A stretch of 40,208 nucleotides of DNA from Bdellovibrio sp. (GCA_013360185.1 JABWCO010000014.1:1-40208); one strand, 5' to 3'; counted from the stretch's first letter, positions 13,388-38,678 are shown. Numbers and translations are program-made. Notes: a model not told the origin generated them from the letters alone.

Positions 13388-13391
<4 letters not shown>
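12813..13391 (+). CDS. engB: ribosome biogenesis GTPase EngB/YsxC
   Basis: This is a 192 aa TrmE-Era-EngA-EngB-Septin family GTPase, normal length. Motifs are visible in order: G1 GRSNAGKSSFINAL (~29-42), the switch region STPGKTRLLNFF, G3 VDMPGYGFA, G4 LTKVDKM and G5 region VSSLKKTG. It assists assembly of the 50S ribosomal subunit and is essential in many bacteria. It is the first gene of a plus-strand run in which kdsB starts 4 bp before its stop (ATGA overlap), so it is probably translationally coupled. Confidence 0.97.
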
Positions 13392-15801
<2,410 letters not shown>

Positions 15802-15833
15802 ATTTTAGATCTGTGTATGAAAGGTCTTTGATA

Positions 15834-16814
15834 ATGTCGAAAATAGTACAGCAGGGTCAGCGAGTTTTAGAAGTTGAGGCTCAGGCGATTTTAGCCTTGC
15901 GGGAACGTATCGGTGCCGATTTTGAAAAAGTCGTGCAATTGATTAAAGCCTGCAACGGGAAGATCGTGTTAACGGGCATGGGTAAATCTGGACAAATTGC
16001 GCGCAAGCTAGCAAGCACTTTTTCTTCGACAGGCACACCCGCGGTCTTTCTTCATCCAGCCGAAAGTTCTCACGGGGACTTAGGAATTGTTGAAAACGAC
16101 GATGTGGTCATCGCTCTTTCTTATGGCGGCGAATCGCCAGAATTTTCTGGTATCCTAAAGTTCGTGGTGCGTAAGGGAATCCCTTTAATTGCAATCACAG
16201 GCAATCCCCAGTCGTCCTTGGCTAAAGCCGCGCAAGTGACTTTGAATGTGCATGTTTCTGAAGAAGCTTGTCCTTTAGGCTTAGCTCCGACGGCGAGCAG
16301 CACGGCGACACTTGCCATGGGTGACGCTGTGGCTATGGCAGTGATGGCAGAAAAGGGAGTCAGCTCTGCCGACTTTGCGGAATTCCATCCAGGTGGAAGT
16401 TTGGGTTATCGTCTTTTAACTCGCGTAAAAGATGTTATGCATGCCGGAGACGCTTTGCCGACGGTGAGTCTTGAAACTCCGATTCGTCAGGTGTTTTCTA
16501 TTATGACCCATAAAGATGTGCGCGGAGCTGCAGGTGTTGTTGATGCTAGCGGAGACCTTGTCGGGGTCATTACTGACGGACAAATTCGCCGTCGACTAGA
16601 AAAAAGCGAAGACCCATTGACGGGGACAGCGAAAGATTTGATGACGACAAGTCCACGCACAGTTGACATGAATGAGTTGGCTGAAAAAGCTTTGTTTGTT
16701 ATGGAACAGTTTCAAATCAACATGCTTTTCGTCTTAGACAAAGAATCGTCTCAGCCTAAAAAGCCTGTGGGTATTTTGCACGTGCAGGATTTGCTGCGTG
16801 CGAAGGTTCGTTAA
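15834..16814 (+). CDS. kdsD: arabinose-5-phosphate isomerase (KdsD/KpsF)
   Basis: This encodes a 326 aa protein that converts ribulose-5-phosphate to arabinose-5-phosphate, the first dedicated step to Kdo. ATG 15834 is preferred because AAAGG lies upstream; an in-frame ATG at 15813 has none. The SIS domain (~35-170) carries TGMGKSGQIARKLASTF, FLHPAESSHGDLG and SYGGESPEF, followed by GLAPTASSTATLAMGDA. Two CBS domains (~200-326) follow: DVMHAGDALPTVSLET and DLMTTSPRTVDMNELA. Length matches the E. coli enzyme. It is last in the engB-kdsB-pyrG-kdsD run, 32 bp after pyrG. Confidence 0.96.
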   Translation: MSKIVQQGQRVLEVEAQAILALRERIGADFEKVVQLIKACNGKIVLTGMGKSGQIARKLASTFSSTGTPAVFLHPAESSHGDLGIVENDDVVIALSYGGESPEFSGILKFVVRKGIPLIAITGNPQSSLAKAAQVTLNVHVSEEACPLGLAPTASSTATLAMGDAVAMAVMAEKGVSSADFAEFHPGGSLGYRLLTRVKDVMHAGDALPTVSLETPIRQVFSIMTHKDVRGAAGVVDASGDLVGVITDGQIRRRLEKSEDPLTGTAKDLMTTSPRTVDMNELAEKALFVMEQFQINMLFVLDKESSQPKKPVGILHVQDLLRAKVR

Positions 16815-23311: not shown

Positions 23312-23387
23312 AGTTGGCAATACCCCGACGTAAGTCCTGATTTGTATACATCCCTAAGTCCTGTATCAAGGTAGGGCACTTGCCGCC

Positions 23388-23915
23388 TTGTGTATTCTTT
23401 TCCACAATGATTCAGTGGGATTAGAAATTTCAAAATTGAAAAATATCAAGATGTTGGTCCTAGATGTGGACGGCGTCTTAACAGATACGCGAATCTGGTT
23501 CGATGGATCAGAATGGCGACGTTTTTATTCCATTCGCGATGGCGTAGGGATCAAGCGTTTGATTGATTCCGGTTATAAAATCGCAGTGATTACGGGGTCT
23601 AAAGCGGAAGACATTCGCGCCCGTGTGAAAGCTCTAGGCATTCAGTTTTTTTATGAAGGCGCGCTAGACAAACAGCCCTCATTCTTGCGCCTGCAAGAGG
23701 AGTCGGGATGTAAGCCTGAAGAAATGGCGTATGTAGGCGATGACATTTTTGATATTCCACTTTTAGATTCTGTCGCCTTCGGAGCAACAGTGCCAGAGGC
23801 CGTCGAAGAAGTTGTTGAGATTGCTGATTATGTGACTCGCAGGCCCGGTGGCTGCGGAGCTGTTCGTGAAGTTTGTGACTACATCTATAAATATGGGGCT
23901 TTTTCCTCTAGGTAG
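23388..23915 (+). CDS. kdsC: Kdo-8-phosphate phosphatase (KdsC)
   Basis: This is a HAD-superfamily phosphatase of C0 type (no cap), 175 aa from a TTG at 23388. An in-frame GTG at 23415 would give the more usual length, and no strong ribosome site decides between them. Motif I LVLDVDGVLTD (nucleophile and acid Asp), motif II VITGSKAED, motif III Lys in DKQPSF, and motif IV YVGDDIFDIPLL are all intact. The end, VTRRPGGCGAVREVCDYI, contains the active-site-closing tail typical of KdsC. It releases free Kdo for KdsB, encoded in this window. In E. coli this gene lies directly before lptC-lptA-lptB-rpoN; here an 11.5 kb block separates them. Confidence 0.93.
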   Translation: MCILFHNDSVGLEISKLKNIKMLVLDVDGVLTDTRIWFDGSEWRRFYSIRDGVGIKRLIDSGYKIAVITGSKAEDIRARVKALGIQFFYEGALDKQPSFLRLQEESGCKPEEMAYVGDDIFDIPLLDSVAFGATVPEAVEEVVEIADYVTRRPGGCGAVREVCDYIYKYGAFSSR

Positions 23916-23921
23916 GTATTC

Positions 23922-24656
23922 ATGCTAAAAAATGGTTTTATAGCCGTTGCGATTATTGTTTCTGCATTGCTGCTTCACAAGGCGGCTTTTGCTGCTGAAG
24001 TGGTAGAGCTTCCCAAAGAAGAGTTAGCACAGGAATCAGTGTTACCTGTTTTCGATAAGCCTGTGAGCGTTAAAAACAGAAACGTCACCACGGCAGGTCG
24101 TTGGGACATGGATGTGTTTTATGGCTATGCTATGACCGAACCGATTGCCAATGTCAGTAAATTTGGCATTGGTATCTATTATAATACTAGTGAAAATCAT
24201 GCGTTCGGCCTGTTCTTCGCTAATAATGCTTCCGGTTTGTCTGATTACGCTCGGCAAATTGAAAGAACACCAGCAACACCTTTGGATTTAAGCAAAGCGC
24301 CGATGCCGAAAAATACCATCATGGGGGATTACAACCTCAAAGCTTTCTATGGAAAAATGAGCGTCACCAAGTCTTTAGTTCTAAATACCGTTCTTTTTGG
24401 TTCTGGCTCAGTCGGCGTGGTTCAGTATGAACACAAAACTTATCCCGCCGTGGCTATTGGCTTGGGACAGAAATTTTATTTCAATAGAAATTGGGCCATG
24501 CGCTTTGATATGCGCCTTTATGCCAATCAGGGACCGGTGCCATTCTTAGCGGGAAGTAAAATGCATAACGGGACGGCAAGACCTTCTTATAGTGAATTCT
24601 CTGAGCGAGTTCTGTTTTCAACAAATTTAGACATCGGTTTGTCGTACTTATTCTAA
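23922..24656 (+). CDS. outer-membrane beta-barrel protein (GltA/B-like)
   Basis: This encodes a 244 aa protein with a signal peptide (IVSALLLHKAAFA, cleavage ~25). After a short periplasmic lead comes an amphipathic-strand barrel with patterns GRWDMDVFYGYAMTEPIAN, FGIGIYYNTSENHAFGLFF, AFYGKMSVTKSLVLNTVLF, AIGLGQKFYFNRNWAMRFDM and a final strand LDIGLSYLF ending in Phe, the BAM recognition residue. This matches the outer-membrane beta-barrel family paired with TPR and TolQR genes in myxobacteria and Bdellovibrio. It starts 6 bp after kdsC and precedes a paralogous barrel gene. Role: probable outer-membrane component of the Glt/Agl-like complex. Confidence 0.82.
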   Translation: MLKNGFIAVAIIVSALLLHKAAFAAEVVELPKEELAQESVLPVFDKPVSVKNRNVTTAGRWDMDVFYGYAMTEPIANVSKFGIGIYYNTSENHAFGLFFANNASGLSDYARQIERTPATPLDLSKAPMPKNTIMGDYNLKAFYGKMSVTKSLVLNTVLFGSGSVGVVQYEHKTYPAVAIGLGQKFYFNRNWAMRFDMRLYANQGPVPFLAGSKMHNGTARPSYSEFSERVLFSTNLDIGLSYLF

Positions 24657-24669
24657 GGGGAGCTGTAAC

Positions 24670-25464
24670 ATGGCATTGAAAAAAAGCATTTATATTTTTG
24701 TGATGCTCGCGCTGTTGGCTCCCTGGGGAGTCCAAGCGCAAGAAGGTGGTGGCGGAGACGACCTTGACGTCATCGAACTGGAGTTAGACAAGGCCACACC
24801 CGCTAAAGCGAAGATTCAGGGCGAAGCTGCGCAATCTTATCAAGAAAAAGACAACACGCTGACAGATTTTTCGGGATTGGGAACCTTGGCACCATTTAAG
24901 GAAGTTTCTGTCATTCAAAGACGTTTCATGCCGAAAACCGGTAGGTTCCAACTTTTTGGTGGCGCCTCTGTTTTAACCAACAATCCATTCTTTAACACGA
25001 TCGGTGGGGTTGCAAAGGCCGGATACTTTATGACCGAACAATGGGGTCTTGAGCTCAATTATTTCGGCCTAACAACTTCCGAAAGAGAAACAACCAAAGA
25101 GTTGCGCGACATCCAGGGTGTGGCTACAGAAAATTTAGTTTATCCAAAGTCTTATATTGGTTTAGATGTGATGTATGTGCCGATTTACGGGAAGATGACT
25201 TGGTTCAATGAAAAAATCGTTCCCTTTGATTTGTACTTTTCTGCGGGCTACGGAACAACGAATACTCAGTCCGGTGAAAATGCCGGTACAATCCATTTGG
25301 CCACAGGGCAAATCTTTGCCTTAAGTAAAGCTTATGCTGTGCGCTGGGATTTCAGTTGGAATTTTTTTAGCGCTAAGGGTATCGACGGGACACAAAATTC
25401 TTTCAACAATCTCTTCCTCACTGTGGGTATGAGTTGGTTCTTTCCGGAGGCTAGTTACCGATGA
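24670..25464 (+). CDS. outer-membrane beta-barrel protein, second paralogue
   Basis: This encodes a 264 aa protein. A signal peptide (MLALLAPWGVQA, cleavage ~24) and an acidic mature start (EGGGGDDLDVIELELD) precede the barrel: RRFMPKTGRFQLFGGASVL, NPFFNTIGGVAKAGYFMTEQ, WGLELNYFGL, FDLYFSAGYGTT, AVRWDFSWNFF and LFLTVGMSWFF. The strand spacing and the K-T-G-R-F ... G-Y-F-x-x-x-W-G-L-E-x-x-Y pattern match the same family as the preceding gene. It lies 13 bp behind that gene with an AGGGGAGC ribosome site, and its stop overlaps the next start by 4 bp. Confidence 0.83.
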   Translation: MALKKSIYIFVMLALLAPWGVQAQEGGGGDDLDVIELELDKATPAKAKIQGEAAQSYQEKDNTLTDFSGLGTLAPFKEVSVIQRRFMPKTGRFQLFGGASVLTNNPFFNTIGGVAKAGYFMTEQWGLELNYFGLTTSERETTKELRDIQGVATENLVYPKSYIGLDVMYVPIYGKMTWFNEKIVPFDLYFSAGYGTTNTQSGENAGTIHLATGQIFALSKAYAVRWDFSWNFFSAKGIDGTQNSFNNLFLTVGMSWFFPEASYR

Positions 25465-27053
25465 AAAAAATTTTACTACTCCTGATTGCTACATCCTTTG
25501 CCGCTCCAGGTATTTCGCTCGCGCAAAGACAGAACAACAAAGCCCGCCCAGCTTTAAGAAAAGCTGCGCCCGCAACGGCGTCGCGCAGTTCAAATACGCG
25601 TGTAGCGACACTTAAAAATCAATTAAGTGACGCTCTTCGAATGGCGCAGTCTGGCCAGTACGACTCCGCCGCGAATAACTTATTTTCTTTAAGTCGTCGC
25701 CCGGAATTAGCCAATGAACGTCCCCAGGTAAAGTATATCCTGGGAACGATGCTCATTGAGCTGAAGCTGTATCAGACGGCCGCTTTTCAGTTCGTCGATG
25801 TGATTCGGTCCAATCATCCTAAGTACGCTAAGCTTGCCATCGAAAAGCTTTCAGTCGTGGCCGATGCCTTAGGAGATGATACGATTTTGAACTATGCGAT
25901 TTCGCGCGTAGATTTAAATGATTTCCCGGCGAACCTTAAAGACATGATCCATTACAGATTGGGCGAGATCAAATTGCGCAATCGTGACTTTTCTGGTGCG
26001 GCGGCTTTATTCAGTCGTGTCAGCTTTGGCAGTAGCACGTATTACCAAGCCCTTTTTAATAAAGGTTTGGCGGAACTTGAGGCTAATCAAACTTCTTTAG
26101 CGGTGGGCACGTTTAATAAAATGTTAGATGCTCGTCGTCGTGCACCGGTGACGGACACAAATAAAGTGGCGGCACAGATGGGGCTGGCTCGGGCTCTTTA
26201 CCAAAAACAAGACTGGGAAGCAGCCATTGAGGCCTATGCGCAGGTGCCGCGTGATACATTGATGTGGCATGACGCTGTCTTTGAGTCCAGCTGGGCGATG
26301 TTGCGTGCGGCAAGATTTCGTTCGGCTTTAAGTAACTTTCAAACTCTCCATTCGGCATATTATGAAGACTTTTATATGCCGGAGAGTTTACTTCTTCGCT
26401 CCATCGTGTACTTGTATATCTGTAAGTATGACGAGATGGAAAAGGTTCTTAGTCTTTTCGAAAAAACTTACGGACCGGTTCGTCGTAAGATCGGTGACTT
26501 CTTGAAGTCGACGAATGAGGCAGGCGCATACTATACGGAAGTTGAAAGAGCCCATGTTTTAAAAACAACTGATCGTAATGCGAACTTACGTTTACCCTAT
26601 ATTGTTGTCCGCAATATCTTGGATCAGGGGGACGTAAAACGCGCAATGACCTATATTGAGAAGTTGAATAACGAGAAAAACCGTATTGAATCAAATTCGG
26701 CGTTCCGCTCTTCACCTTTGGGGCAGTATGCGATGAAGATCATTTCAAATCGCAGCCGCAACGCTAAATTTGCAGTTGGTGACATGGCCAAAGCGCATTT
26801 ACAAAACATGCGTGTTGAGTTGCGTGACCTCTATGAACAAGCCGGCTTCATTCGTTATGAAATGATTACGGGTCGAAAAGACAGTATTAAAAAGAAAATT
26901 GCGGGTAAAGATATCGCGACTGAACAAATTGACGACAAAATTGATCGTCAGTTCTATATCCAGAATGGCTATGAGTACTATCCGTTCCAAGGCGAATTCT
27001 GGTTGGATGAAGTCGGTAATTATCACTACCTTGGCAAACAGAGCTGCGAGTAA
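25461..27053 (+). CDS. periplasmic TPR-type repeat protein
   Basis: This encodes a 530 aa protein: signal peptide (ILLLLIATSFAAPGISLAQ), a basic Arg/Ala-rich lead, then helical repeats of TPR/Sel1-like spacing (~45-330), for example LRMAQSGQYDSAANNLFSLS, RNRDFSGAAALFSRVSFGSS and YQKQDWEAAIEAYAQVPRDT. The last ~130 residues are a helical region ending in YEYYPFQGEFWLDEVGNYHY. It is exported and likely periplasmic, providing a scaffold between inner-membrane motor and outer-membrane barrels (inference from context). It overlaps the second barrel gene by 4 bp and lies 3 bp before the next TPR gene, all within one operon. Confidence 0.85.
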   Translation: MKKILLLLIATSFAAPGISLAQRQNNKARPALRKAAPATASRSSNTRVATLKNQLSDALRMAQSGQYDSAANNLFSLSRRPELANERPQVKYILGTMLIELKLYQTAAFQFVDVIRSNHPKYAKLAIEKLSVVADALGDDTILNYAISRVDLNDFPANLKDMIHYRLGEIKLRNRDFSGAAALFSRVSFGSSTYYQALFNKGLAELEANQTSLAVGTFNKMLDARRRAPVTDTNKVAAQMGLARALYQKQDWEAAIEAYAQVPRDTLMWHDAVFESSWAMLRAARFRSALSNFQTLHSAYYEDFYMPESLLLRSIVYLYICKYDEMEKVLSLFEKTYGPVRRKIGDFLKSTNEAGAYYTEVERAHVLKTTDRNANLRLPYIVVRNILDQGDVKRAMTYIEKLNNEKNRIESNSAFRSSPLGQYAMKIISNRSRNAKFAVGDMAKAHLQNMRVELRDLYEQAGFIRYEMITGRKDSIKKKIAGKDIATEQIDDKIDRQFYIQNGYEYYPFQGEFWLDEVGNYHYLGKQSCE

Positions 27054-27056
27054 AAT

Positions 27057-30000
27057 ATGAAATTGAACAGACACCACCTTCTTGTTTCAAGTCTCCTTAC
27101 AGTTTTTTGCGCAAGCCCTTTGGCTTTGGCGCAGAAAAAAAACGTGAAAGTGACCAAGACCGTACAGAAAAAGACGGTGGGTGAGCTGTTATCGCAAGCC
27201 AGTGAAAGCAGTCGCGGTGGGCGACTACAAATGTCGAAAAGTGAAACCGCCCTGCCGTCTTCTAGCTTGGGCTTTAAAGAGCAGGTAAAAAACGTAAATC
27301 TTGAATCGGTAAAACCACCCCGCTCTTCGGAGATTATTCAAAGAGATGCATCTGGTGGCAGCGACATGGTCGCTTATGAAAGAGTCCTAGATCAGCAGAT
27401 CAATGAGCTTTTTAAGCTAACAGAAAAATTCAAAGGCAGTCCGAACCGCGGGGAACTGTGGCTGCGTTTGGCGGAACTCTATGTGGAAAAAGCAGGCTTA
27501 ATCGATGGTCGTCGTCAAGATGAGTACGACGCTAAGCTGCGGGCGTTTCAGTCAGGTAAAAGTAAAGTAAAACCTAAACTCAATGTGGCACAAGCCCGCG
27601 AGTACAATAGGAAAGCCGTACAACTTTATGAATGGTTCCAACGGGACTTCCCGCGGGATTCAAAAATGAGTCAGGCGTTATTCTTTTTAGGATATAACTA
27701 TTTTGAGTTGGGCGACGTAAAAAAAGGCGCTAATTACTATGAAAAGTTAACGCGTGGATATCCCAACTCTCAGTTTGTGGGAGAAGCGCACTTTGCCTTG
27801 GCGGAATACTATTTTGAGAATGAAAGATGGTCGCAGGCGTATAAAGAATATTCTCATCTCATCAAAGAAAAAAAGCATCGTCTGCATACTTTTGCTCTTT
27901 ATAAAGGTGCGTGGTGTTTGTTCCGTATCGGTAAACAACAGCAAGCGATGAACTATCTAGAATTTATTATTAAATCGGGCAAAGGCGAAACTGGAGAGCA
28001 ATTGGCGGGTCGTAAGACGGTCAATCGTAACAAGCTTGAAGGTGAAGCATTACGCGACATCGTGATTTTTTATGCCGAAGCGGGTGATCCGTCCCGTGCG
28101 GCCGCATATTTTAAAAGCCTCATAGGAAATAACTCGGGCCCGTATCTTGAAAAGTTGGCCTACCAATATTCTGATCGTGGCAACAAGGACGCGTCTCGAG
28201 ACATTTTCAAGCTCTTGATCGCCCAGGCGCCGACGTCGGCAAAGTCTTTTGAATATCAATATCAGATTGTGCAAAATTACTATTACGCGAAGAATACATC
28301 GGCATTTAAAGGTGAGTTGTACGCTTGGGTCAAAGACTATGATGCGAGCAGTTCGTGGTATGCGGCAAATAAAAATAATAAAGAGCTGATTGAAAGCTCT
28401 TACAAGTTGCGTGAAACGACCTTGCGCAACTATGTTTTGCAGCAGCATCAGACGGCGCAAAATTCTCGAGCACCTTATTCTCAACAGTTGGCAAATGAAG
28501 GATATAATCTCTATTTGCGCGAGTTCCCGGATTCAGGCACAGCCTCGGATATGCACTTTTATTATGGTGAGTTGCTTTATGATATGCGCAGGTATGATGA
28601 ATCAGCAACTCAGTACAAATGGGTCGTCGACAATGCACCACAAAGCAAATTTTACGGTAAGTCAGCGCAGAATTTAATTTTAGCCGTAGAACGCAGCATT
28701 CCTTCCGACCAAGAAATGCAAAAACGGGTGGGCAACTCTTTAGATCCTATCCCTTTAGAGCCTAAAGTTGAGCGCTTTATCAAAGCCGGTTTGTGGTACG
28801 TGGAAAAGTTCCCTACGTCGGAAAAATCCGCTGAAATCAAATTCCGTGTGGGTCGTTTGTTCTATCAAAGCAATCACTTTGACGAAGCTTCCAAATACTT
28901 CCGTGAGATCGTTCAGCAATATCCAAGCACTAAATATGCTGAGTACTCTGCCAATCTTCTTTTGGATATTTACAACTTAAGAAAAGATTATGCGGGCTTG
29001 GAAAAAGCGGGTTCTGAACTTTTAGCGGTGCCATCGATTGCGGCTTCTAAAGCGGGCTCGGATATACGTGGCGTTTTAGAAAAATCGTCATTTAAGCGAG
29101 GCCAAGACCTAGAGATTGACAAAAAGTACGGCGAAAGTGCGCAAGTCTTTGAAGCTTTTGCAAAACAAAATCCGACCTCGAACTTAGCCGTGACGGCCCT
29201 TTTTAACGCTGGGGTTAACTTTGAAAGAGCGGGAGTAAATGCTTCAGCAATTCATGCCTATCAAGGTGTTTTAATCTCTAAAGATCCTTCGGCAGAAAAA
29301 TTGAAACCTAAGGCACGCCGTTTGTTAGCAAAACAGTATCAGGATTCGGCTCAGTTTGAAGAAGCGGCAAAACTTTATAAGCAAGCCGCGGATGAAAGTC
29401 CGACGGATCCACTGACTCCGAATATGATTTACAACTCGGCGGTCCTTTATGAAGCTTTGGGTAAATCCGATGAGGCGATTCGCTCTTATACAGCCTTTAT
29501 CAAAGTGAATAAAAAGCACGCAGATAATATTGAAACGGTTTTCAGTATGGCGCAAATTCATCGTAAAGCAGGACAAAATGGAGCGGCGATCGCCCGTTAT
29601 ACTGAATACGTTGATGGCGGAGGCACTGACCGTGAAAAAGTGGTTGAGAGTGCTTACTGGGTCAGTGAGCTTTATGGTCGTCAAAAAGCGATTACGAAAT
29701 CTAAAGAATGGGCTGATAAAACTTTGGCGATTCAAAAACGTTTTGCTCCCAACAAAAAAGGCACCGGAGCTTCCTATGCGGCAAAAATCCGCTTGGCAGA
29801 AACGATGCTAACGTTCCGAGAAATGCGTGCGGTTACTTTCCCAAGCGACCCCGCTCGGCAAAAGGCCGCAGCGGATAAGAAAATTGGGTTGTTAACTCGC
29901 TTGGCGAGCGAACTGGCTGACGTCATTAAATATGACAGCGCTGAAGAAATCGTCAGTGCCCTGAGTATTCTCGGTGAGGCTAACTTAAATATGGCACAAA

Positions 30001-30266
30001 CAATTCTAAATGCGCCATTGCCAGGTGGCTTGAATGCCGAAGAGACCAAGCAGTACAAGGCCGGTGTCGAAAAATTTGCGGAACCTTTCTTGGGCAAGGC
30101 GCGTGACGGCTTTAAACTGGCTGTTGAGCGAGGTTGGGAACTTGAAGTTTATAATGATGGATTTAAGACAGCTTACGAATACATGAGCAAACAAGATCCA
30201 AAAACTTATTATAACGGTGGCGAAGTGGGTGCAGATATCCGCTTGGTAAATTGGATGGGGCAATAA
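27057..30266 (+). CDS. giant periplasmic TPR protein (Glt/Agl-like)
   Basis: This encodes a 1069 aa protein, signal peptide MKLNRHHLLVSSLLTVFCASPLALA, then many tetratricopeptide repeats along nearly the entire chain: RGELWLRLAELYVEKAGL, ALFFLGYNYFELGDVKKGAN, EAHFALAEYYFENERWSQAY, EIKFRVGRLFYQSNHFDEAS, TALFNAGVNFERAGVNASAI, KQYQDSAQFEEAAKLYKQAA, and others. No transmembrane helix or catalytic domain is seen. Such long TPR solenoids occur with the Myxococcus gliding operon, where they form the periplasmic part of the Glt complex. It ends with TAATG: the stop shares one base with the next ATG, so translation is coupled. Confidence 0.88.
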   Translation: MKLNRHHLLVSSLLTVFCASPLALAQKKNVKVTKTVQKKTVGELLSQASESSRGGRLQMSKSETALPSSSLGFKEQVKNVNLESVKPPRSSEIIQRDASGGSDMVAYERVLDQQINELFKLTEKFKGSPNRGELWLRLAELYVEKAGLIDGRRQDEYDAKLRAFQSGKSKVKPKLNVAQAREYNRKAVQLYEWFQRDFPRDSKMSQALFFLGYNYFELGDVKKGANYYEKLTRGYPNSQFVGEAHFALAEYYFENERWSQAYKEYSHLIKEKKHRLHTFALYKGAWCLFRIGKQQQAMNYLEFIIKSGKGETGEQLAGRKTVNRNKLEGEALRDIVIFYAEAGDPSRAAAYFKSLIGNNSGPYLEKLAYQYSDRGNKDASRDIFKLLIAQAPTSAKSFEYQYQIVQNYYYAKNTSAFKGELYAWVKDYDASSSWYAANKNNKELIESSYKLRETTLRNYVLQQHQTAQNSRAPYSQQLANEGYNLYLREFPDSGTASDMHFYYGELLYDMRRYDESATQYKWVVDNAPQSKFYGKSAQNLILAVERSIPSDQEMQKRVGNSLDPIPLEPKVERFIKAGLWYVEKFPTSEKSAEIKFRVGRLFYQSNHFDEASKYFREIVQQYPSTKYAEYSANLLLDIYNLRKDYAGLEKAGSELLAVPSIAASKAGSDIRGVLEKSSFKRGQDLEIDKKYGESAQVFEAFAKQNPTSNLAVTALFNAGVNFERAGVNASAIHAYQGVLISKDPSAEKLKPKARRLLAKQYQDSAQFEEAAKLYKQAADESPTDPLTPNMIYNSAVLYEALGKSDEAIRSYTAFIKVNKKHADNIETVFSMAQIHRKAGQNGAAIARYTEYVDGGGTDREKVVESAYWVSELYGRQKAITKSKEWADKTLAIQKRFAPNKKGTGASYAAKIRLAETMLTFREMRAVTFPSDPARQKAAADKKIGLLTRLASELADVIKYDSAEEIVSALSILGEANLNMAQTILNAPLPGGLNAEETKQYKAGVEKFAEPFLGKARDGFKLAVERGWELEVYNDGFKTAYEYMSKQDPKTYYNGGEVGADIRLVNWMGQ

Positions 30267-31129
30267 TGAAAAAGCTTATTGTTTTAGGTGCAGTATTTGT
30301 GTTGGCGGCGTGTTCGTCAAAGGGGCCGGTCAAGGAAGCTACCGAGACTCCGACGTCCGAGTCCTCTATTGCGGAAGCTCCGACAGTCGTCCAAGAAGCT
30401 GCGACAACACCTGCCGCGCGTGAAGAGGTGCCAGATCGCCCCCCTGAAAAGCCGGTAGCACCTTCCCAGTACGCGGCCTTAAATGAGGCGATCAAGGTGC
30501 AAAGTGATGATCGTATCTATCAAGCGGCAGCGCAGATTCTTACGCAAACTCCGAACGATGCACGGGCTTTGAATGCCTTAGCCATGTATCACTATAAGCG
30601 TGGCCGCTTCGATTTATCTCGTTACCTTTTGCGTAAGGCCATATCAGGGAGTCCCAAAATGGCAGAGCTTCATTCAAACTTGGGAACGGTACAGTTAGCA
30701 CAAAATGAGAAGCGGGATGCAATTAAATCCTATCGTCGTGCTTTAGAAATTAATAGTGACGAGCCCGTGGCCGCAGCCAACCTTGGTTCTATCTATGTGC
30801 AAGAGCGTGACTTTACCAAAGCACAGATTGTTCTTGAAGTAGCCTATCGCCGGGGTGTGCGTGACCCGCGAGTTCTAAATAACTATGCGATCGCACTGAC
30901 CTCGGCACAAAAGTACGAAAAGGCTGAAGAGTTGTACAAAGCAATTTTGAAAGATGGCTCCAATAATCGGGAAGCATTATTTAATTATGCAACATTGTTG
31001 GTCGATAATATGGGCAAATACCAGGACGGACTAGACGTTATTAACAGACTAAAGTTTGTAGGTGGCCCCGGAGATACACGCAATAGAATTATTGCTTTGG
31101 AAAATAAGGCGAAAGCTGGTTTAAAATAG
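30266..31129 (+). CDS. TPR lipoprotein (AglT/GltE-like)
   Basis: This encodes a 287 aa protein from the ATG at 30266, overlapping the preceding stop by one base; an in-frame TTG at 30251 is less likely. Signal and lipobox VLGAVFVLAACSSKG give a lipidated Cys at residue 16. A Pro/Thr/Glu-rich linker (~20-65) leads to TPRs (~75-285): NDARALNALAMYHYKRGRF, AELHSNLGTVQLAQNEKRD, EPVAAANLGSIYVQERDF, and DPRVLNNYAIALTSAQKYEK. The architecture equals outer-membrane-anchored TPR lipoproteins such as AglT/GltE of Myxococcus. Exact orthology within that group is not settled. Confidence 0.85.
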   Translation: MKKLIVLGAVFVLAACSSKGPVKEATETPTSESSIAEAPTVVQEAATTPAAREEVPDRPPEKPVAPSQYAALNEAIKVQSDDRIYQAAAQILTQTPNDARALNALAMYHYKRGRFDLSRYLLRKAISGSPKMAELHSNLGTVQLAQNEKRDAIKSYRRALEINSDEPVAAANLGSIYVQERDFTKAQIVLEVAYRRGVRDPRVLNNYAIALTSAQKYEKAEELYKAILKDGSNNREALFNYATLLVDNMGKYQDGLDVINRLKFVGGPGDTRNRIIALENKAKAGLK

Positions 31130-31145
31130 AATGAAGGCGGAAACT

Positions 31146-31451
31146 ATGTCGAAATTCTTCAAGCTGTTAACTGTCGTGATGGGACTGATTTGTGCAGTTG
31201 AGTTTGCTTATGCACAATCAACGGCGGGATCGACGACTCGTTCAACAACGACGACCACAAAAAAAGAAAGAAAAGCGACCTTGAACTTCGAAGACGAGCT
31301 TATCGAAGGTTCCACGCAAAAGCCGGATCTTTTCTATTTGTTTCAAAAAAAGAACTTCAATTATAAAAGATTGATTAAGCTTAGAGAAAATTTTTTACCC
31401 GAGATGAGACGAACAACAGAAGATATACAGCGGGTCCGGGGTGGTAATTGA
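31146..31451 (+). CDS. small exported protein in the Glt/Agl-like operon
   Basis: This encodes a 101 aa protein from the ATG at 31146, which has an AAGGCGG ribosome site; an in-frame ATG at 31131 has none. Signal peptide FFKLLTVVMGLICAVEFAYA (cleavage before Q). The mature protein (~80 aa) starts with a Ser/Thr-rich stretch and continues ERKATLNFEDELIEGSTQKP, then a basic segment (YLFQKKNFNYKRLIKLRENF). No family known to me. Position between the TPR lipoprotein and the FHA/AgmX-like protein, and the TTGA overlap with the latter, imply a periplasmic accessory of the same complex. Confidence 0.8.
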   Translation: MSKFFKLLTVVMGLICAVEFAYAQSTAGSTTRSTTTTTKKERKATLNFEDELIEGSTQKPDLFYLFQKKNFNYKRLIKLRENFLPEMRRTTEDIQRVRGGN

Positions 31452-33589
31452 GATCGCCGTTAATATTAAGAATTTTTGAAAATAATCAGCTCGTAGGTGT
31501 GAAACAGTTCGATCAAGATCAGATCGTGATTGGTCATAATGCGGAAGTGCATCTGGATTTAGCTTCGGATCAGATTTCGCCCATTCATTGTTTGATTGAG
31601 CTTCGCGACAATGGTTATTACATCTGCGATCTTGGATCCTCATCGGGCACGTTTAAAAATGGTCAGGCCATTTTAGATGAAGCATTATCTTCCGGTGACG
31701 ATATTGAAATTGGTCCCTACAAGATATCCTTCTTTGTCGGTGTGCCGAAACCCAAAGTGTTACCGAACACCACGGGTGTTGCTCCGGCGGCCGTAGGGCA
31801 GACTCCACCACCACCACAGCGTCCTGCGGTGGTTCCAGAGTTTAAGAAGCCCGAGCCGGCGACGATGCCTCCAGCGGCCGTGGTGAAAACGGAAGAAGTA
31901 AAAGTTGCAGTTCCGATTCCTTCGGTTATTCCCCAGTTAGAAGTTGTTAAGGCCGAGGAAAAACCGGTTATTGCCTCGACACCGGTGCGCCCAGAAATTC
32001 GTAAAGGTCGCAGTAGCTATAAGAAAGAAAAGAAAACAAAAACGTTTGCTCCGCCAAGTGATATCAAGGATCTGCGCTCGTACCTAAAGCCCGGAAAAGG
32101 GACCACACTTGAAGTGATTGTGGCGTGGAAAGAGCGTGTGATTAACACCTACCATTTCCGCGGAACCAAGCCGATTCGCGTGAACTCGGGTGAACGACAA
32201 ATTGCTTTGCCCAATGGTTTGGTACCGAAAAATTTCCCACTGATTGATTTGGCCAACGGCGTGCGTGTGAATGCCACCATGGATATGACTGTGGAAATGG
32301 TCTCTTCGGCAGGCTTGCAGCCAGTCGATGATTTAGCACGCAACGGGAAAGCTCAAAAAACCGGCCATGGTTATAGTGTGCGTTTAGAGCAGAACGAAAT
32401 GGTTTGTATTTCGTTGCCGGGCGGGTATTTGAATATTTATATCCGTTTTGTTGCACAGCCACCGGTGGTACCAATGTTGCCACCGTTGATGTTGTCAGGT
32501 TCGGAAATGACAGGCGTGGTGATGTCCATCGTGCTTGTGGGTTTATTGGCCCTTTATATCTCAGCAACCACTCCGAAAGATGGTGAAGGGGATAAGCAAG
32601 AAGAAGTGCAGCGTATCGCGCAGGTGGTATTTAATAAGCCACCTCCGCCGGCTCCTCCGGTGCCAACTCCGCCGCCACCTGTTCCGCCTCCGCCACAACC
32701 AGTTGCGACGCCGACACCTCCACCACCAGCTCCCAAAAAAGTGGTGGTTGCTGAAAAAGCGAAGGAAGCGCAGAAAAAAGGTCCTAGTGTGCAGAAGGCG
32801 CAACCAGCGCAAGTGGCGGCCCGTGCAAATGAAGTGGCGCCGAAGCCAAATGCACAAGATCGGACGAAAAAATTTACGTCAACTCGTCAGGGTGGCGCTA
32901 TGAAGACCGGACAAACTGAAGGTGCGAATGCACAGTCTTCGAATAAAGATTTGTCCAAAGTCGGATTGTTCAGTGCTTTCGGCGGCGGCGGGAATCGCGC
33001 CAACATCGACAAAGCCTACAGTGGTTCGGGAGAAGTTTTGGGTATGGCTGATAAGGCCACTGGAACTTCGGGTTCGAATGAAGACCGTGGCGGCAATGAT
33101 ATCGGTTCGAAATTTAAAGATGCCGGAGCCGGAGGTAAAGGAACTGCGACCCAAGGGATCGCAGGAATCGGAACCAAAGGTCGTGGGTCAGGTCAATCTG
33201 CTTACGGCGCCGCAGATGGCTTTGGTAGCAAAACGACGGTGGCTGTCGAGGGTGGTGGCTTCGAAGAGTCTTTCGATGGAACTATCGATAAAGAAGCGAT
33301 TCGTCGCGTGATTCGTGCCAAAAAGCATGAACTGCAAAGTTGCTATGAACGAGCTTTAAATACCCTCGAAAAGGGCACGAAGTTAGAGGGTAAAATTATC
33401 CTTTCGTGGGAAATCATCGATCGAGGCCAAGCACGTAACGTCAGGGTGAAGAGTTCAACAGTGGGAAATGCCAAGGTTGAAAACTGTATCCGTGATCGTT
33501 TGGCTAGCTGGACGTTCCCAGAACCGCCAACGGGTTTAGTTGCCGAAGTGCAGGCTTACCCGTTTGTTCTGAATCCAGCAGGAAATTAG
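31448..33589 (+). CDS. FHA-TM-proline-rich-AgmX/TonB-like protein (GltG-like)
   Basis: This encodes a 713 aa protein from a TTG at 31448 (ribosome site GGGGTGG) that overlaps the previous stop. An N-terminal FHA domain (~10-95) holds SDQISPIHCLIELRDNG and DLGSSSGTFKNGQ; the usual GR of FHA is GH here. A cytoplasmic linker (~100-350) is followed by one transmembrane helix (~354-375, VVMSIVLVGLLALYI). A periplasmic proline-rich stretch (~394-430), then a Gly/Ala/Lys-rich low-complexity part, then an AgmX/PglI-type C-terminal domain (~608-713: DKEAIRRVIRAKKHELQSCY, KIILSWEIIDRG, LASWTFPEPPTG) with TonB-like topology. It can transmit motor motion from the inner membrane to the outer membrane, as proposed for GltG/GltJ. 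Confidence 0.92.
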   Translation: MRSPLILRIFENNQLVGVKQFDQDQIVIGHNAEVHLDLASDQISPIHCLIELRDNGYYICDLGSSSGTFKNGQAILDEALSSGDDIEIGPYKISFFVGVPKPKVLPNTTGVAPAAVGQTPPPPQRPAVVPEFKKPEPATMPPAAVVKTEEVKVAVPIPSVIPQLEVVKAEEKPVIASTPVRPEIRKGRSSYKKEKKTKTFAPPSDIKDLRSYLKPGKGTTLEVIVAWKERVINTYHFRGTKPIRVNSGERQIALPNGLVPKNFPLIDLANGVRVNATMDMTVEMVSSAGLQPVDDLARNGKAQKTGHGYSVRLEQNEMVCISLPGGYLNIYIRFVAQPPVVPMLPPLMLSGSEMTGVVMSIVLVGLLALYISATTPKDGEGDKQEEVQRIAQVVFNKPPPPAPPVPTPPPPVPPPPQPVATPTPPPPAPKKVVVAEKAKEAQKKGPSVQKAQPAQVAARANEVAPKPNAQDRTKKFTSTRQGGAMKTGQTEGANAQSSNKDLSKVGLFSAFGGGGNRANIDKAYSGSGEVLGMADKATGTSGSNEDRGGNDIGSKFKDAGAGGKGTATQGIAGIGTKGRGSGQSAYGAADGFGSKTTVAVEGGGFEESFDGTIDKEAIRRVIRAKKHELQSCYERALNTLEKGTKLEGKIILSWEIIDRGQARNVRVKSSTVGNAKVENCIRDRLASWTFPEPPTGLVAEVQAYPFVLNPAGN

Positions 33590-33622
33590 TTTTTTAAATA
33601 AAGTTTTTTAAGGAGGAATTCC

Positions 33623-34288
33623 GTGAACCCAACAGCAGCAGTAGACAACATGAATGTAATTCAGCGAGCATTCGCAGAGGGCGGTTTCGTAATGTACGTA
33701 ATCGCGGTCATCGCGATTCTCGCTCTTTTCCTGATCGTAGAAAGAATGATGAAATTCAAAAATCTTTCTGTCGATAAAAAGGAATTCACCGATCAAATTT
33801 TCAGAATGGTTGTGGCCGGTGACCTACGCCAAGCTATTAGTTATTGTGATGCACGTCCAGCTCCACTGACAAACACGGTAAAAGCGGGTTTGGTGCAAGC
33901 AATGAACAAACGCCCTGACGAAGAAGTGCAAGTGGCGATGGACGCAGCGGTTATGCGCGAAATGCCAAAAGTAGAAGGTTGGACTTCTTTCCTGGCAGTT
34001 TTCGGTAACGTCGCGGTTCTTGCCGGTCTTTTGGGAACGATCATCGGTATGATCGGTTCATTCCGCGCGGTGGCAGCAGCTGATCCTGCGACCAAAGCGT
34101 TGGAACTTTCAAAAGGTATCTCGCATGCCTTGAATTGTACGGCGTTTGGTCTTTTCGTGGCGATTGTTTCTATCGTTGCCTATGGATTGTTTCAGCATCG
34201 TATTCAAAAAACTGAAAATGAAGTTATTGAAACAAGCATGAGTCTTTTGAATCTGGTAGTTGCTAACAGAGAAAAAATTAAAGACTAA
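33623..34288 (+). CDS. MotA/TolQ/ExbB-family proton channel (AglR-like)
   Basis: This encodes a 221 aa protein from a GTG at 33623, supported by a perfect AAGGAGG ribosome site 6 bp upstream; an ATG at 33650 is the alternative. Three transmembrane helices: ~19-39 (FVMYVIAVIAILALFLIVER), ~122-145 (FLAVFGNVAVLAGLLGTIIGM) and ~165-190 (LNCTAFGLFVAIVSIVAYG), with the conserved segment LAGLLGTIIGMIGSF and an Ala/Thr-rich third helix typical of TolQ/ExbB. It forms the stator pentamer around a TolR/ExbD dimer. Followed by two TolR/ExbD genes, the same one-plus-two composition as AglR-AglQ-AglS of Myxococcus. Confidence 0.95.
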   Translation: MNPTAAVDNMNVIQRAFAEGGFVMYVIAVIAILALFLIVERMMKFKNLSVDKKEFTDQIFRMVVAGDLRQAISYCDARPAPLTNTVKAGLVQAMNKRPDEEVQVAMDAAVMREMPKVEGWTSFLAVFGNVAVLAGLLGTIIGMIGSFRAVAAADPATKALELSKGISHALNCTAFGLFVAIVSIVAYGLFQHRIQKTENEVIETSMSLLNLVVANREKIKD

Positions 34289-34313
34289 CGGTTAGATAGG
34301 TTTAGGGGTTTCT

Positions 34314-34790
34314 ATGGCTCACATAGATAGTGGCGGTTCTGGCGGCAGACAAAGAAGTATCGAGCTCAATCTCGTGCCTTTCATCGACTTGATGAGTGTT
34401 CTTATCACTTTCTTGTTGATCACGGCTGTCTGGACCCAAGTTTCTATGATCCAAATTGGCAGTTCTTTGTATGGGAAGAAGTCGGAATCACAACCGGCTC
34501 CGACACCTCCACCAAATGCCGACGTGGTATTGAAAGTGGATGTGAAAGAGGGTGGCTATGTTTTAACTGTTGGGAGACAGGTCATAAGTCTTCCTATGGT
34601 GAACCAACAATTTGATGATGCGGGCCTAGTTGCACAGTTGCAGCGTGTGAAGCAGCTTTATCCAGAAAAAGTCGATGCAATCGTCAGTGTTGCTGACATC
34701 GTTCCCTATGAACAACTTATCAAAGCAATGGACAACTGCTTAACCGCAGGCTTTTCAGCAATTTCCGTTGCGACCGGAGGGCCGAACTGA
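34314..34790 (+). CDS. ExbD/TolR-family protein, first copy (AglQ/S-like)
   Basis: This is a 158 aa bitopic membrane protein. A short N-terminus leads to the channel helix NLVPFIDLMSVLITFLLI with the proton-binding Asp at residue 25. A periplasmic Pro-rich linker (~57-68) and a small alpha/beta domain (~70-155) follow, including KVDAIVSVADIVPYEQLIKA, the TolR/ExbD C-terminal fold. The Asp is the residue that is protonated in ExbD, TolR and AglQ. Its stop overlaps the next start by one base (TGATG). Confidence 0.94.
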   Translation: MAHIDSGGSGGRQRSIELNLVPFIDLMSVLITFLLITAVWTQVSMIQIGSSLYGKKSESQPAPTPPPNADVVLKVDVKEGGYVLTVGRQVISLPMVNQQFDDAGLVAQLQRVKQLYPEKVDAIVSVADIVPYEQLIKAMDNCLTAGFSAISVATGGPN

Positions 34791-35380
34791 TGGCCATCTT
34801 TAGACCTGGCGAAAGACATCGTTATCACAATATTTTGAGCAAACGAAAAGGCAAACGAGAAGTGACGGCCTTGCTGTCTTTGACGGCGATGGTCGATATG
34901 TTTACGGTTCTAGTTATTTTCCTTTTGCAAAACTACAATGCGACGGGTGACATCCTTTATATTCCGAAGGAAGTTGTTTTGCCGAAAGCCGCAAGTGTGC
35001 GCGAGCTAAAACCTTCGCACGTGGTGACAATTTCGAATAAAGAAATTCTGTTAGACAAGGACCCTGTGGCGACTTTCGACCAAGTTGTGGCGGCTGAAGA
35101 CTGGAATATTCCAGGCTTGAAAGAGCAGTTGATCTTAGCCCTGGCTAAATCGAAAGCAGAACAAGACAGCAAACTGCAAAATAGAATCCGCGATGCCGTT
35201 GAGGCGACGCGTGGAGGAACTGAAGAGGATGCTAACGCTTGGAGCAAGGTAACGATTCAAGCAGATAAAGGCGTCGACTTCTTGACTGTCAAAAAAGTTC
35301 TTTTCACAGTCACGGAAGCCGGTGCGAGCGAAATTAATTTCGCGGTGACTAAAACACCTCAGGAATCGACTTCAAACTAA
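34790..35380 (+). CDS. ExbD/TolR-family protein, second copy (AglS/Q-like)
   Basis: This is a 196 aa bitopic protein with a longer basic N-terminal tail (GERHRYHNILSKRKGKREV). The channel helix is LLSLTAMVDMFTVLVIFLLQ with the critical Asp at residue 36. The periplasmic domain holds a ~60 aa insertion of charged residues (KSKAEQDSKLQNRIRDAVEA) before the terminal TolR-like strand-helix-strand. It differs clearly from the first copy, so a hetero-dimeric rotor is likely, as in AglQ/AglS. It is the last gene of the Glt/Agl-like block. Confidence 0.93.
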   Translation: MAIFRPGERHRYHNILSKRKGKREVTALLSLTAMVDMFTVLVIFLLQNYNATGDILYIPKEVVLPKAASVRELKPSHVVTISNKEILLDKDPVATFDQVVAAEDWNIPGLKEQLILALAKSKAEQDSKLQNRIRDAVEATRGGTEEDANAWSKVTIQADKGVDFLTVKKVLFTVTEAGASEINFAVTKTPQESTSN

Positions 35381-35392
35381 AATTCGGCTATT

Positions 35393-35427
35393 CTGCGTAA
35401 GTTCTGGTGTTTCATCAACTTACGCAG
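35393..35427. other. perfect 11 bp inverted repeat between Glt/Agl block and lptC
   Basis: CTGCGTAAGTT (35393-35403) and AACTTACGCAG (35417-35427) are exact reverse complements around a 13 nt loop, 13 bp after the ExbD-like stop and 40 bp before the lptC start. No T run follows (CCCCCT instead). It may be a terminator without U tract, an mRNA processing site separating two expression units, or an operator. Confidence 0.55.
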
Positions 35428-35466
35428 CCCCCTCCGCCAGAGCTCGGAGCACGGAAAAGCTAAACT

Positions 35467-36489
35467 ATGGCCAAATTTAGAAACCTCATTTTCATCTTAC
35501 TGCTCGGCTTTCTGTTCGTTGAGGTCCTCATTGTATTTCCGTCGCGTCTAGAACATGAAGATGAAGCAGAGGTTCGCGCGCGAGTCGAAGCGCAAGATAA
35601 AACTAATAAAGAAAAAGAAGCGCGGCTTGCCCGTGGCGAAAAAATCTCTGAACCTTCGAACCTGGCAGAGCAGCGCATGCAGGGTGTGCACTTTGTTGAA
35701 AGTCAGCAAGGCGCTCGTGATTGGGAGCTATTTGCCGCTTCTGCTGAGGGGAATCAAGGCTTAGGCAACGTGAATCTGCAGCAAGTGAAAGTTCTTTTCT
35801 ATAATAAGAACAAGGTGGAATTCACCGTGACTGGCGACAAAGGTTCGATGGATTCAAAAACCAAAGATTTAAGTGTTATTGGCAATGTTATTACCCGCTC
35901 GGAAAATGGCTATACTTTTGAAACACCCTCTGTTTTTTATTCGTCAAAAACACGTGTTCTGGATAGTCCTGAGCAGGTGTTGATGCAAGGACCGAAAGAA
36001 GTATCGGGTGATGGTTTGCGCCTAAAGGGCCATCGCATGAAGGTTTTTGTCGACACCTCGAAAATGATCATTTCAGAAAAGGTCGAAGCGCAAAAACCTG
36101 AAAAAGATGGTAAGCGTGTCGATATTGCTGCGGACGGGGCCGAATTTAGCAGTAAAAATCGTGAAGCGAAATTTATCGGAAAAGTGCAGGTGACTTACGA
36201 TAAAATGAAGCTCGAAGGTCCCGAGGCTTCTTTTGTGTATAAAGCGGGGGAAAACATTTTAAGTGCCATAGCTGTCGTCGGCGGGGTTCGCGTCAGTGAC
36301 GTCGACAAGTTTGCGACATCGGAGTCAGTCAACCTGGACCTTTTGGCAAATAAATATATTTTTAAAGGCAGTCCCAAGGTTATTCAAAATGGCGATGAAT
36401 TAAGCGGAGATGAAATCATTTTTCTCGATGGTGGCAAGCGAGTTAAAGTTGAAAGAGTCCGCGCAAAGGTGGAGAATAGAGAACAATGA
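35467..36489 (+). CDS. lptC: LptC-LptA fusion: LPS export periplasmic protein
   Basis: This is a 340 aa protein, longer than LptC alone (~190) and about the sum of LptC plus an LptA-type repeat. One N-terminal transmembrane helix (~6-24, [18 protein letters not shown]) anchors it. Residues ~65-185 form the LptC beta-jellyroll ([58 protein letters not shown]). Residues ~190-335 read as a second OstA/LptA-like domain ([58 protein letters not shown]). So it may provide both LptC and LptA parts of the LPS bridge. The stop overlaps lptB by 4 bp. Confidence 0.88.
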
Positions 36490-37208
36490 GTATGCTCACC
36501 ATCAAGGATATTTCGAAATCTTTTAAGAAGCGTAAAGTCGTCGACGGCGTTTCTTTTTCTGTGGAGTCGGGACAAGTCGTGGGCCTGCTTGGCCCGAATG
36601 GGGCCGGTAAAACCACTTCATTTTATATGGTGGTAGGTCTAGTGCAGTCTGACTCTGGCGCTATCAATATCGATGATGTGAATATCTCTAAGGAACCCAT
36701 GTATCGTCGAGCTCGAGTGGGTTTAAGTTATTTGGCGCAGGAGCCTAGTATTTTCCGTAAACTCACCGTCGCCGAGAATATTATCGTAGCGTTAGAAGCG
36801 CATGGTTACTCAGGTGCGCAGCGTTCTGACAAGTTGGAACAATTGATCGCTGATTTTCGCGTGGGACACATCCGCGATAGTTATGGCTATGCACTCTCAG
36901 GTGGTGAACGTCGGCGCGTCGAGATCGCCCGAGCCTTGGCTGGCTCACCTAAATTCTTGCTTTTGGATGAACCCTTTGCGGGTATTGACCCGATTGCCGT
37001 GGCGGATATTCAGAATATCATCCGTGATCTTAAGGCCAAAGGTATAGGAGTTTTGATTACAGATCACAACGTGCGTGAGACTTTGGGCATTTGTGATTAT
37101 GCTTATATACTCAAGGACGGGAAAATTCAGGTTAGCGGAAGTTCTGATGAAATCGCAAATTCTGAATTGGCACGTAAGTTCTATCTTGGTGAGAACTTTA
37201 AACTGTAA
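36486..37208 (+). CDS. lptB: LPS export ABC transporter ATPase LptB
   Basis: This is a 240 aa cytoplasmic ATPase that powers LptB2FGC extraction of LPS. Walker [20 protein letters not shown]-loop region [20 protein letters not shown], signature [16 protein letters not shown], Walker [14 protein letters not shown] and switch His [10 protein letters not shown]. The segments [14 protein letters not shown] and [12 protein letters not shown] are diagnostic for LptB against other ABC ATPases. It overlaps lptC by ATGA and lies 36 bp before rpoN, the classic lptCAB-rpoN order. Confidence 0.97.
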
Positions 37209-37244
37209 GCTGAATGGCCTGTGGGCCCTGAAAGGATATTTTTA

Positions 37245-38678
37245 ATGGCTCTTAGACAGACGATGAACCTGAGCCAGTCTCTGGTGATTACTCCGCAGTT
37301 GCAACAGGCGATTAAGCTTTTGCAAATGTCGCGTATGGAGTTGGAATCGGCTGTTCGCTCTGAGCTGGAAGAAAATCCGATCCTCGAAGAAGCAGAGTTG
37401 CTTAAAGAAGAGGACATACAGCGTACGAAAGAGGCGGCAACGGAAGTTGAAGCGCCGGAATCTGGGAACGATCAAAATTCTCAAGATCCCCAAAAACAAG
37501 ACGAGTTTGAGTGGGAATCTTATATCGAAGCCAATCAAAAGCCGCCGCAATCCGGTATGGCGGGTTCCGAAGAGATCATGAATTATGAGAACGTCATCAC
37601 GGCGTCTCAGACCTTGCATGATCATCTTTACTGGCAAGTAAAAATGAACGGCTTTTCTGAAGAAGAAGAAATGGCTGCGGATGCGTTGATTGGTGCCATT
37701 GATGATGATGGCTATATCAAAATTCCTTTGGAGCAAATTGCCGCAGAAGAAAACGTTGATTTGGGCTTGTTGGAAGACACCTTAACCTTGATCCACGAAT
37801 TCGATCCGGCAGGGGTGGGGGCACGTGATCTGAAAGAATGTCTTTTAGTTCAGGCCAAACATCTCGAAGAAGACACTCACGACTTGGTCAGCCTGATCAA
37901 TAACCATCTTAAAGATTTAGAAAAGAAAAATTACGAAGCGATCGCCAAAGCCCTGGGTCGTGAAGTGGGCGACGTTATTGAGATGTGCAAAATCATCTAT
38001 GCCATGGATCCGAAGCCAGGCCGCGCTTTTCTCAGCAGTGACACTCACTACGTGACGCCAGACGTTTATGTTTATAAAGTCGGTGATGATTACGTCGTAT
38101 CTTTAAATGAAGATGGTTTGCCCCGTTTAAAGATTTCGAATTTCTATAAAAATATGCTGAAAGGTGGCAAAACCACCGGGGATAAGACCCAAGACTATAT
38201 TCAAGAAAAACTGCGTTCGGCAGTATGGTTGATTAAGTCGATCCATCAAAGACAACGCACGATTTATAAAGTTGCGGAATCTATTGTGAAGCACCAGCGT
38301 GAATTCTTTGAAAAAGGGTCGGAGCATCTAAAACCGATGGTCTTGCGCGATATCGCCAATGATATCGGCATGCACGAATCGACTGTCAGTCGGGTCACGA
38401 CGGCAAAGTACGTGCATACTCCTCAGGGCATTTACGAACTTAAATATTTCTTCAACTCTGGCATTAGCTCCTCAGACGGGGACTCCTTGGCCAGTGAGTC
38501 GGTGAAGATTAAGATCAAGGATCTTGTTGCCAAAGAAAGCCCTAAGAATCCATTGTCAGATCAAAAGATCGTGGATTTACTAAAGGTCGAAGGAATTCAA
38601 ATCGCTCGCCGTACGGTTGCAAAGTATCGCGATGTTTTAAAGATTCTTCCTTCTTCGCAGCGTAAGAAATATTTCTAA
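37245..38678 (+). CDS. rpoN: RNA polymerase sigma-54 factor
   Basis: This encodes a 477 aa protein from ATG 37245 (ribosome site AAAGGATA); an in-frame GTG at 37221 is less likely. Region I has the activator-interacting pattern MNLSQSLVITPQLQQAIKLL, then an acidic region II. The core-binding domain (~115-300) includes VGARDLKECLLVQAK. The HTH that contacts the -12 element is at LRDIANDIGMHESTVSRVTT. The RpoN box ARRTVAKYRDVLKILPSSQ, which contacts the -24 element, is intact near the C-terminus. It directs transcription from -24/-12 promoters with activators such as the FHA-AAA protein in this window. hpf, which follows rpoN in many Proteobacteria, is not next. Confidence 0.98.
   Translation: MALRQTMNLSQSLVITPQLQQAIKLLQMSRMELESAVRSELEENPILEEAELLKEEDIQRTKEAATEVEAPESGNDQNSQDPQKQDEFEWESYIEANQKPPQSGMAGSEEIMNYENVITASQTLHDHLYWQVKMNGFSEEEEMAADALIGAIDDDGYIKIPLEQIAAEENVDLGLLEDTLTLIHEFDPAGVGARDLKECLLVQAKHLEEDTHDLVSLINNHLKDLEKKNYEAIAKALGREVGDVIEMCKIIYAMDPKPGRAFLSSDTHYVTPDVYVYKVGDDYVVSLNEDGLPRLKISNFYKNMLKGGKTTGDKTQDYIQEKLRSAVWLIKSIHQRQRTIYKVAESIVKHQREFFEKGSEHLKPMVLRDIANDIGMHESTVSRVTTAKYVHTPQGIYELKYFFNSGISSSDGDSLASESVKIKIKDLVAKESPKNPLSDQKIVDLLKVEGIQIARRTVAKYRDVLKILPSSQRKKYF

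Follow-up and report, generated by a model that had tools for sequence, protein, structure and literature searches.

In many Proteobacteria, kdsC, lptC, lptA, lptB and rpoN follow one another without interruption. How, then, do ten genes that resemble a gliding motor come to lie between kdsC and lptC in a Bdellovibrio genome, and does this position tell us anything about their function? The window analysed here is a stretch of 40,208 nucleotides, contig C206 of a 3.54-Mb Bdellovibrio draft genome. The ORF listing of this window places ten collinear plus-strand ORFs at positions 23922-35380, with gaps of at most 34 bp and several short overlaps. The block is probably the form that the envelope-spanning Glt-Agl motor takes in Bdellovibrio, orthologous to Bd0828-Bd0838 of B. 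bacteriovorus and inserted once, in an ancestor of the class Bdellovibrionia. The motor cluster of Bdellovibrio is already known; its seat within the LPS cluster appears to be the new part.

Table 1 Features of the window, with the profile matches that identify them
Feature	Coordinates	Strand	Evidence or remark
engB, kdsB, pyrG, kdsD (upstream part of the Kdo operon)	12813..16814	+	
kdsC, Kdo-8-phosphate phosphatase	23388..23915	+	TIGR01670, 134 bits, over cut-off; NF007019, 2.7e-43
gltB, GltB-type outer-membrane beta-barrel	23922..24656	+	TIGR04565 OMP_myx_plus, 103.9 bits, cut-off 60
gltA, GltA-type outer-membrane beta-barrel	24670..25464	+	TIGR04565, 124.4 bits, cut-off 60
GltC-type periplasmic TPR protein, 530 aa	25461..27053	+	NF033756, 7.5e-58, profile positions 116-619 of 622, below equivalog cut-off
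GltD-type giant periplasmic TPR protein, 1069 aa	27057..30266	+	TPR/YbgF repeats, position, family conservation
GltE-type TPR lipoprotein, lipobox LAAC	30266..31129	+	NF033758, 3.1e-08, below equivalog cut-off
CglF, small exported protein	31131..31451	+	NF033764, 9.9e-14, 51 bits, below equivalog cut-off of 90
GltG: FHA, transmembrane segment, proline-rich region, TonB-like C-terminal domain	31448..33589	+	NF033760, 5e-70
AglR-type MotA/TolQ/ExbB proton-channel subunit	33623..34288	+	PF01618, 4.5e-27
AglQ-type ExbD/TolR subunit	34314..34790	+	PF02472, 5.3e-17
AglS-type ExbD/TolR subunit	34790..35380	+	PF02472, 3.4e-12
Perfect 11-bp inverted repeat CTGCGTAAGTT/AACTTACGCAG, no T tract	35393..35427	+	aglS-lptC gap
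LptC-LptA fusion, 340 aa	35467..36489	+	TIGR04409, 64.3 bits, above cut-off of 38; TIGR03002, 2.1e-08
lptB	36486..37208	+	TIGR04406, 366 bits, above cut-off of 240
rpoN, sigma-54	37221..38678	+	TIGR02395, 2.9e-136

Searches with Pfam and NCBIfam profiles recovered the part list of the original prediction in full: both barrels, which matched OMP_myx_plus, the three TPR proteins and the small exported protein, then the FHA/TonB-like protein and the set of one TolQ-type and two ExbD/TolR-type proteins. The predicted Glt/Agl homology likewise held up for the TPR, FHA and barrel proteins, as judged from the E values of GltC, GltG and CglF and from both barrels exceeding the OMP_myx_plus cut-off (Table 1), with GltC, GltE, CglF and GltG staying below their NCBIfam equivalog cut-offs (650 bits in the case of NF033760, the GltG model). 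The profile tests thus place the core features of Glt-Agl at the block: an AglRQS-type set, GltG, GltA/GltB, GltC/GltD/GltE and CglF. The suggestion that the barrels, the small exported protein and the 530-aa protein were lineage-specific parts was wrong and is ruled out by these NCBIfam identities, which make them GltB/GltA, CglF and GltC; which barrel is called GltB and which GltA rests on gene order only. The C-terminus of GltG additionally matched NF033768 (AgmX/PglI; 98.7 bits, above its cut-off of 40) and its FHA domain the Pfam model (7.1e-14). For GltE, generic TPR models outscored NF033758, and the start is listed as TTG at 30251, with an ATG at 30266. NF033759, considered as a further Glt model, proved to be TraA and gave no match. 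A search of solved structures returned only FHA proteins and TolQ/ExbB, with no Glt structure among the matches.

Residues expected of the channel are strictly kept. The channel threonine of AglR was invariant in all 55 orthologues, as were the membrane aspartates of AglQ (FIDLMSV motif) and AglS (MVDMFTV motif; 55/55 each), which fits the needs of a proton-driven motor. The set of parts suggests a path for force, in which an inner-membrane complex of AglR, AglQ and AglS, driven by protons, would move GltG, with its FHA head in the cytoplasm and its TonB-like tail in the periplasm. From GltG, force would pass through the periplasmic GltD, GltE, GltC and CglF to the GltA/GltB barrels, where it may power surface gliding and prey attachment. 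In M. xanthus, GltB, GltA and GltC form an outer-membrane-periplasm subcomplex (PMC4488436). Profile searches of the window genome found no recognisable GltJ (best score 48 bits against a cut-off of 450, in other FHA/TonB-like proteins) and a marginal, partial match to the adhesin CglB (16 bits, E = 0.008, cut-off 200), so the Myxococcus machine is not present here in full. GltH, GltI, GltJ and GltK have been reported missing from Bdellovibrio (PMC3169522).

Whether this machine serves gliding has to be weighed against its paralogues. Four more gltC/gltD/gltG/aglRQS-type clusters occur in the window genome (contigs C84, C79, C37 and C208), together with a partial one (C76). In the C84 cluster, aglR is immediately preceded by a PilZ-like gene, the arrangement reported for Bd1482 in HD100. 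HD100 itself has four such operons that differ in expression (PMC2797640), and the aglQ gene that B. bacteriovorus induces on surfaces, bd1480, belongs to another cluster (PMC9140294). These paralogues leave room for the same motor to have another job at our locus, either moving a surface polymer in the manner of Nfs or energising a step of prey contact in the manner of Tol/TonB, while a paralogous cluster would run gliding. Such a division of labour would also agree with the Bd0838 (aglS) transposon mutant, whose reported phenotype concerns attachment rather than gliding (negative for prey attachment, killing and rounding; PMC6561027), and with Nfs, the Myxococcus paralogue, which acts in spore-coat assembly (PMC3858216). 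Yet, of the clusters in its genome, that of the window has by far the best-scoring GltC against the profile of the gliding protein (194 bits, with 99 for the runner-up), the published AglRQS phylogeny puts Bd0828-0838 nearest to the gliding motor (PMC3169522), and virtually all genomes of the class carry the GltG of the window cluster. We consider another job possible but rather doubtful. By profile scores and the published tree, the block is probably orthologous to the gliding genes of M. xanthus and not to its Nfs genes; its probable role is in gliding and attachment. In 2011, Bd0828-Bd0838 was put forward as the strongest candidate for the gliding apparatus (Luciano 2011, PMC3169522), and in a 2026 review the machinery by which Bdellovibrio glides is still described as unidentified (PMC13104615). 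Class-wide conservation, invariant motor residues and the published attachment phenotype make the block the first cluster to test for gliding.

Turning to the flanks, kdsC lies directly before the block and lptC directly after it, as predicted, followed by lptB and rpoN. The gene called lptC is present at that place, but it encodes an LptC-LptA fusion (Pfam domains LptC and LptD_N/LptA); it is the only clear LptC of the window genome, just as the lptB next to it is the only LptB over the cut-off. The listed start of kdsC is a TTG, and the true start may be slightly downstream. The remainder of the Kdo operon, kdsA excepted, is also in the window: engB-kdsB-pyrG-kdsD is located ~6.6 kb from kdsC in this lineage, with other genes between, and is contiguous with kdsC/gltB in many relatives. 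Divergent from these four genes is a sigma-54 activator with FHA, AAA and HTH domains (11431-12657, minus strand); a similar protein is encoded upstream in locus L080, and rpoN stands at the far end of the cluster. Two minus-strand genes flanking the region (18131-20269 and 38743-39978) encode proteins of 712 and 411 aa of no recognised family.

To ask how widespread the arrangement is, we compared 58 loci, drawn from 60 relatives in 35 genera and 10 families. The ten-gene order was kept in nearly all of them, and kdsC and lptC-lptB-rpoN flanked the block in most. The same arrangement recurred in three genomes of a second order of the class (L160-L162; in L161, whose retrieved stretch ends 1 kb past aglS, lptC follows a GYF-PilZ gene on a different contig). 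The context kdsC-[glt-agl]-lptC(A)-lptB-rpoN is therefore kept across the class Bdellovibrionia, in two orders and 11 families. Among 103 distinct loci, kdsC or another Kdo gene was found upstream in at least 68 of the 72 with room for it, lptC after aglS in at least 55 of the 60 with room downstream, and both flanks in at least 39 of 45; these are lower bounds because open-frame limits hid some genes, and L104, for instance, was scored without lptC though the same contig shows lptC in L058. Immediate adjacency to kdsC or to lptC has been lost in some families. Just outside the block, genes for an amino-acid ABC transporter and a thioesterase occur in some members of the genus but not in others, which provides an internal control for background decay of gene order; with the outer genes this patchy, recurrence of the same order in nearly all 58 loci excludes chance. 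The synteny comparison across Bdellovibrionota thus bears out an insertion into a split kds-lpt-rpoN cluster, class-wide and with an uninterrupted order in outgroups, and in close relatives the block was not found in the same order beside unrelated genes. A literature search that took in few subscription journals returned no description of a motor cluster inside a Kdo/LPS-export operon, and its class-wide seat there is apparently undescribed.

When did the motor genes arrive? In a GltG tree of 48 rows, the 27 Bdellovibrionia rows form one clade (support 100/100), with members of a family mostly together. The other classes of the phylum keep gltA-gltC-gltD-(gltE)-cglF-gltG together, unlinked from kds and lpt, and have lptC-lptB-rpoN at a separate place. 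Three genera of one family (f13) and one genome of another (f19) have pyrG-kdsA-kdsD-lptC-lptB-rpoN uninterrupted, with nothing between kdsD and lptC; GltG gave no match in them at the threshold used. These four genomes (L199, L217, L218 and L219) are small, at 1.7-2.0 Mb. On the simplest reading, the uninterrupted f13/f19 order is the expected empty site of the insertion, and the motor genes entered once, in the ancestor of Bdellovibrionia. The same order could in principle reflect loss of the glt-agl block; its match to the Proteobacterial arrangement favours insertion in Bdellovibrionia over loss in f13/f19 and suggests the former. That the bounding genes are normally adjacent in Proteobacteria would also suit a recent or horizontally acquired insertion specific to the strain or genus. 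This was rejected on the class-wide sharing of the site, in two orders and 11 families, and on a GltG tree that largely follows families, and we regard it as extremely improbable. In the single, ancestral insertion that we favour, the ten genes would have entered a kdsB-pyrG-kdsA-kdsD-kdsC-lptC-lptB-rpoN operon between kdsC and lptC, and the block would have been inherited there since. On this reading, the link between the motor and the Kdo/LPS-export operon is as old as the class.

The two junctions of the block differ. Upstream, each of the 54 loci measured has its first gltB start codon within -56 to +27 bp of the kdsC stop, which leaves no room for a promoter; kdsC and the glt genes very probably form one transcript. 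A sigma-54 promoter before the block was considered and dismissed, as a consensus scan gave two hits (at 9573 and inside gltG) with three expected by chance. In a consensus scan of the region for promoters and terminators, promoters were not in excess and terminators were near chance. Downstream, the aglS-lptC gap holds an intrinsic terminator in HD100-like strains (L046-L049) and in L050 and L063, is 18 bp long and terminator-free in the L059-L062 group, and contains an opposite-strand gene in most other families. Analogous TGCGCAG/CTGCGCA hairpins, of differing sequence, are found at the same place as the inverted repeat of the window in L040, L042, L044, L045 and L055. A transcript of the whole stretch 22778-38678, as had been envisaged, is therefore not conserved, and of the proposed tie between motor expression and envelope biogenesis, the upstream half stands while the terminator or opposite-strand gene at the glt-lpt junction speaks against the other. 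The block would be coupled to kdsC upstream, with downstream coupling to lptC depending on lineage. For genetic work this calls for caution, since insertions in the aglS region may affect lptC-lptB-rpoN in strains that lack a terminator at the junction.

Does the linkage reflect a shared function? We hypothesize that LPS assembly and gliding could be functionally coupled, and we give about even chances to the contrary view that the kds-lpt linkage is a frozen accident between functionally unrelated LPS export and motor genes, held in place by slow local rearrangement and translational coupling to an essential gene. An accident would account for the interrupted lptC junction of many lineages and for the lost adjacencies noted above, and our literature search, with the same coverage, found no paper on a functional LPS-motor link. 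It fits less well with a linkage that lasts across 11 families while outer neighbours change within a genus, and with a kdsC-gltB coupling kept in 54 of 54 loci, more than passive decay should leave.

The opposite-strand gene between aglS and lptC encodes two GYF_2 domains and one PilZ domain. This GYF-GYF-PilZ gene occupies the gap in seven families (f2, f4-f6, f8, f10 and f11; examples are L070:15776-16486 and L081:15361-16086, also L083, L085, L160 and others) and is located elsewhere in Bdellovibrionaceae; in the window genome, its orthologue is on contig C129 (14076-14750), with one TGA inside the match. Gliding of HD100 is controlled by the cyclase DgcA, whose proposed receiver is the PilZ gene Bd1482 beside another gliding operon (PMC3271064). 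Judging from its gene neighbourhood, the GYF-GYF-PilZ protein is a second candidate for a DgcA receiver or c-di-GMP effector of the motor. Combining both ideas for Bdellovibrionia, the motor would be functionally linked to LPS assembly: translational coupling of kdsC and glt may raise motor synthesis in step with the supply of Kdo, and the GYF-GYF-PilZ protein may be a c-di-GMP-responsive cytoplasmic adaptor of the motor that possibly binds a proline-rich part of GltG and stands in for the missing GltJ. As a joint account, we judge this quite unlikely.

Among the closest known systems is that of B. bacteriovorus. Locus L047, from a genome (G006) that we take to be strain HD100, has the same order and the same kdsC and lpt flanks as the window; the species differ (GltG ~76% identical), and the aglS-lptC gap holds a canonical terminator in HD100-like strains but a hairpin without a T tract in the window. 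Bd0828-Bd0838 matches the window in genus, parts and lack of GltJ (PMC3169522, PMC2797640, PMC6561027), and the two are very probably orthologous, as judged from likeness of parts, order and genus. The Agl-Glt system of Myxococcus xanthus shares homologues of GltA/B, GltC, GltD, GltE, CglF, GltG and AglRQS, but its genes are split over three loci (G1, G2 and M1) where the window has one operon. Linkage to kds-lpt is not known from M. xanthus. Compared with that system, the window genome is without a recognisable GltJ and has a marginal CglB, and GltH, GltI and GltK are reported absent from Bdellovibrio (PMC3169522). The Proteobacterial kdsD-kdsC-lptC-lptA-lptB-rpoN cluster has the same gene order on both sides of the insertion, whereas that of the window is interrupted by ten motor genes and has LptC and LptA fused. 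Finally, with respect to Tol-Pal and ExbBD-TonB, AglR matches TolQ/ExbB, and AglQ and AglS match TolR/ExbD, membrane aspartate included; in contrast to these systems, the window has two different ExbD-type subunits and an FHA-bearing GltG as their partner.
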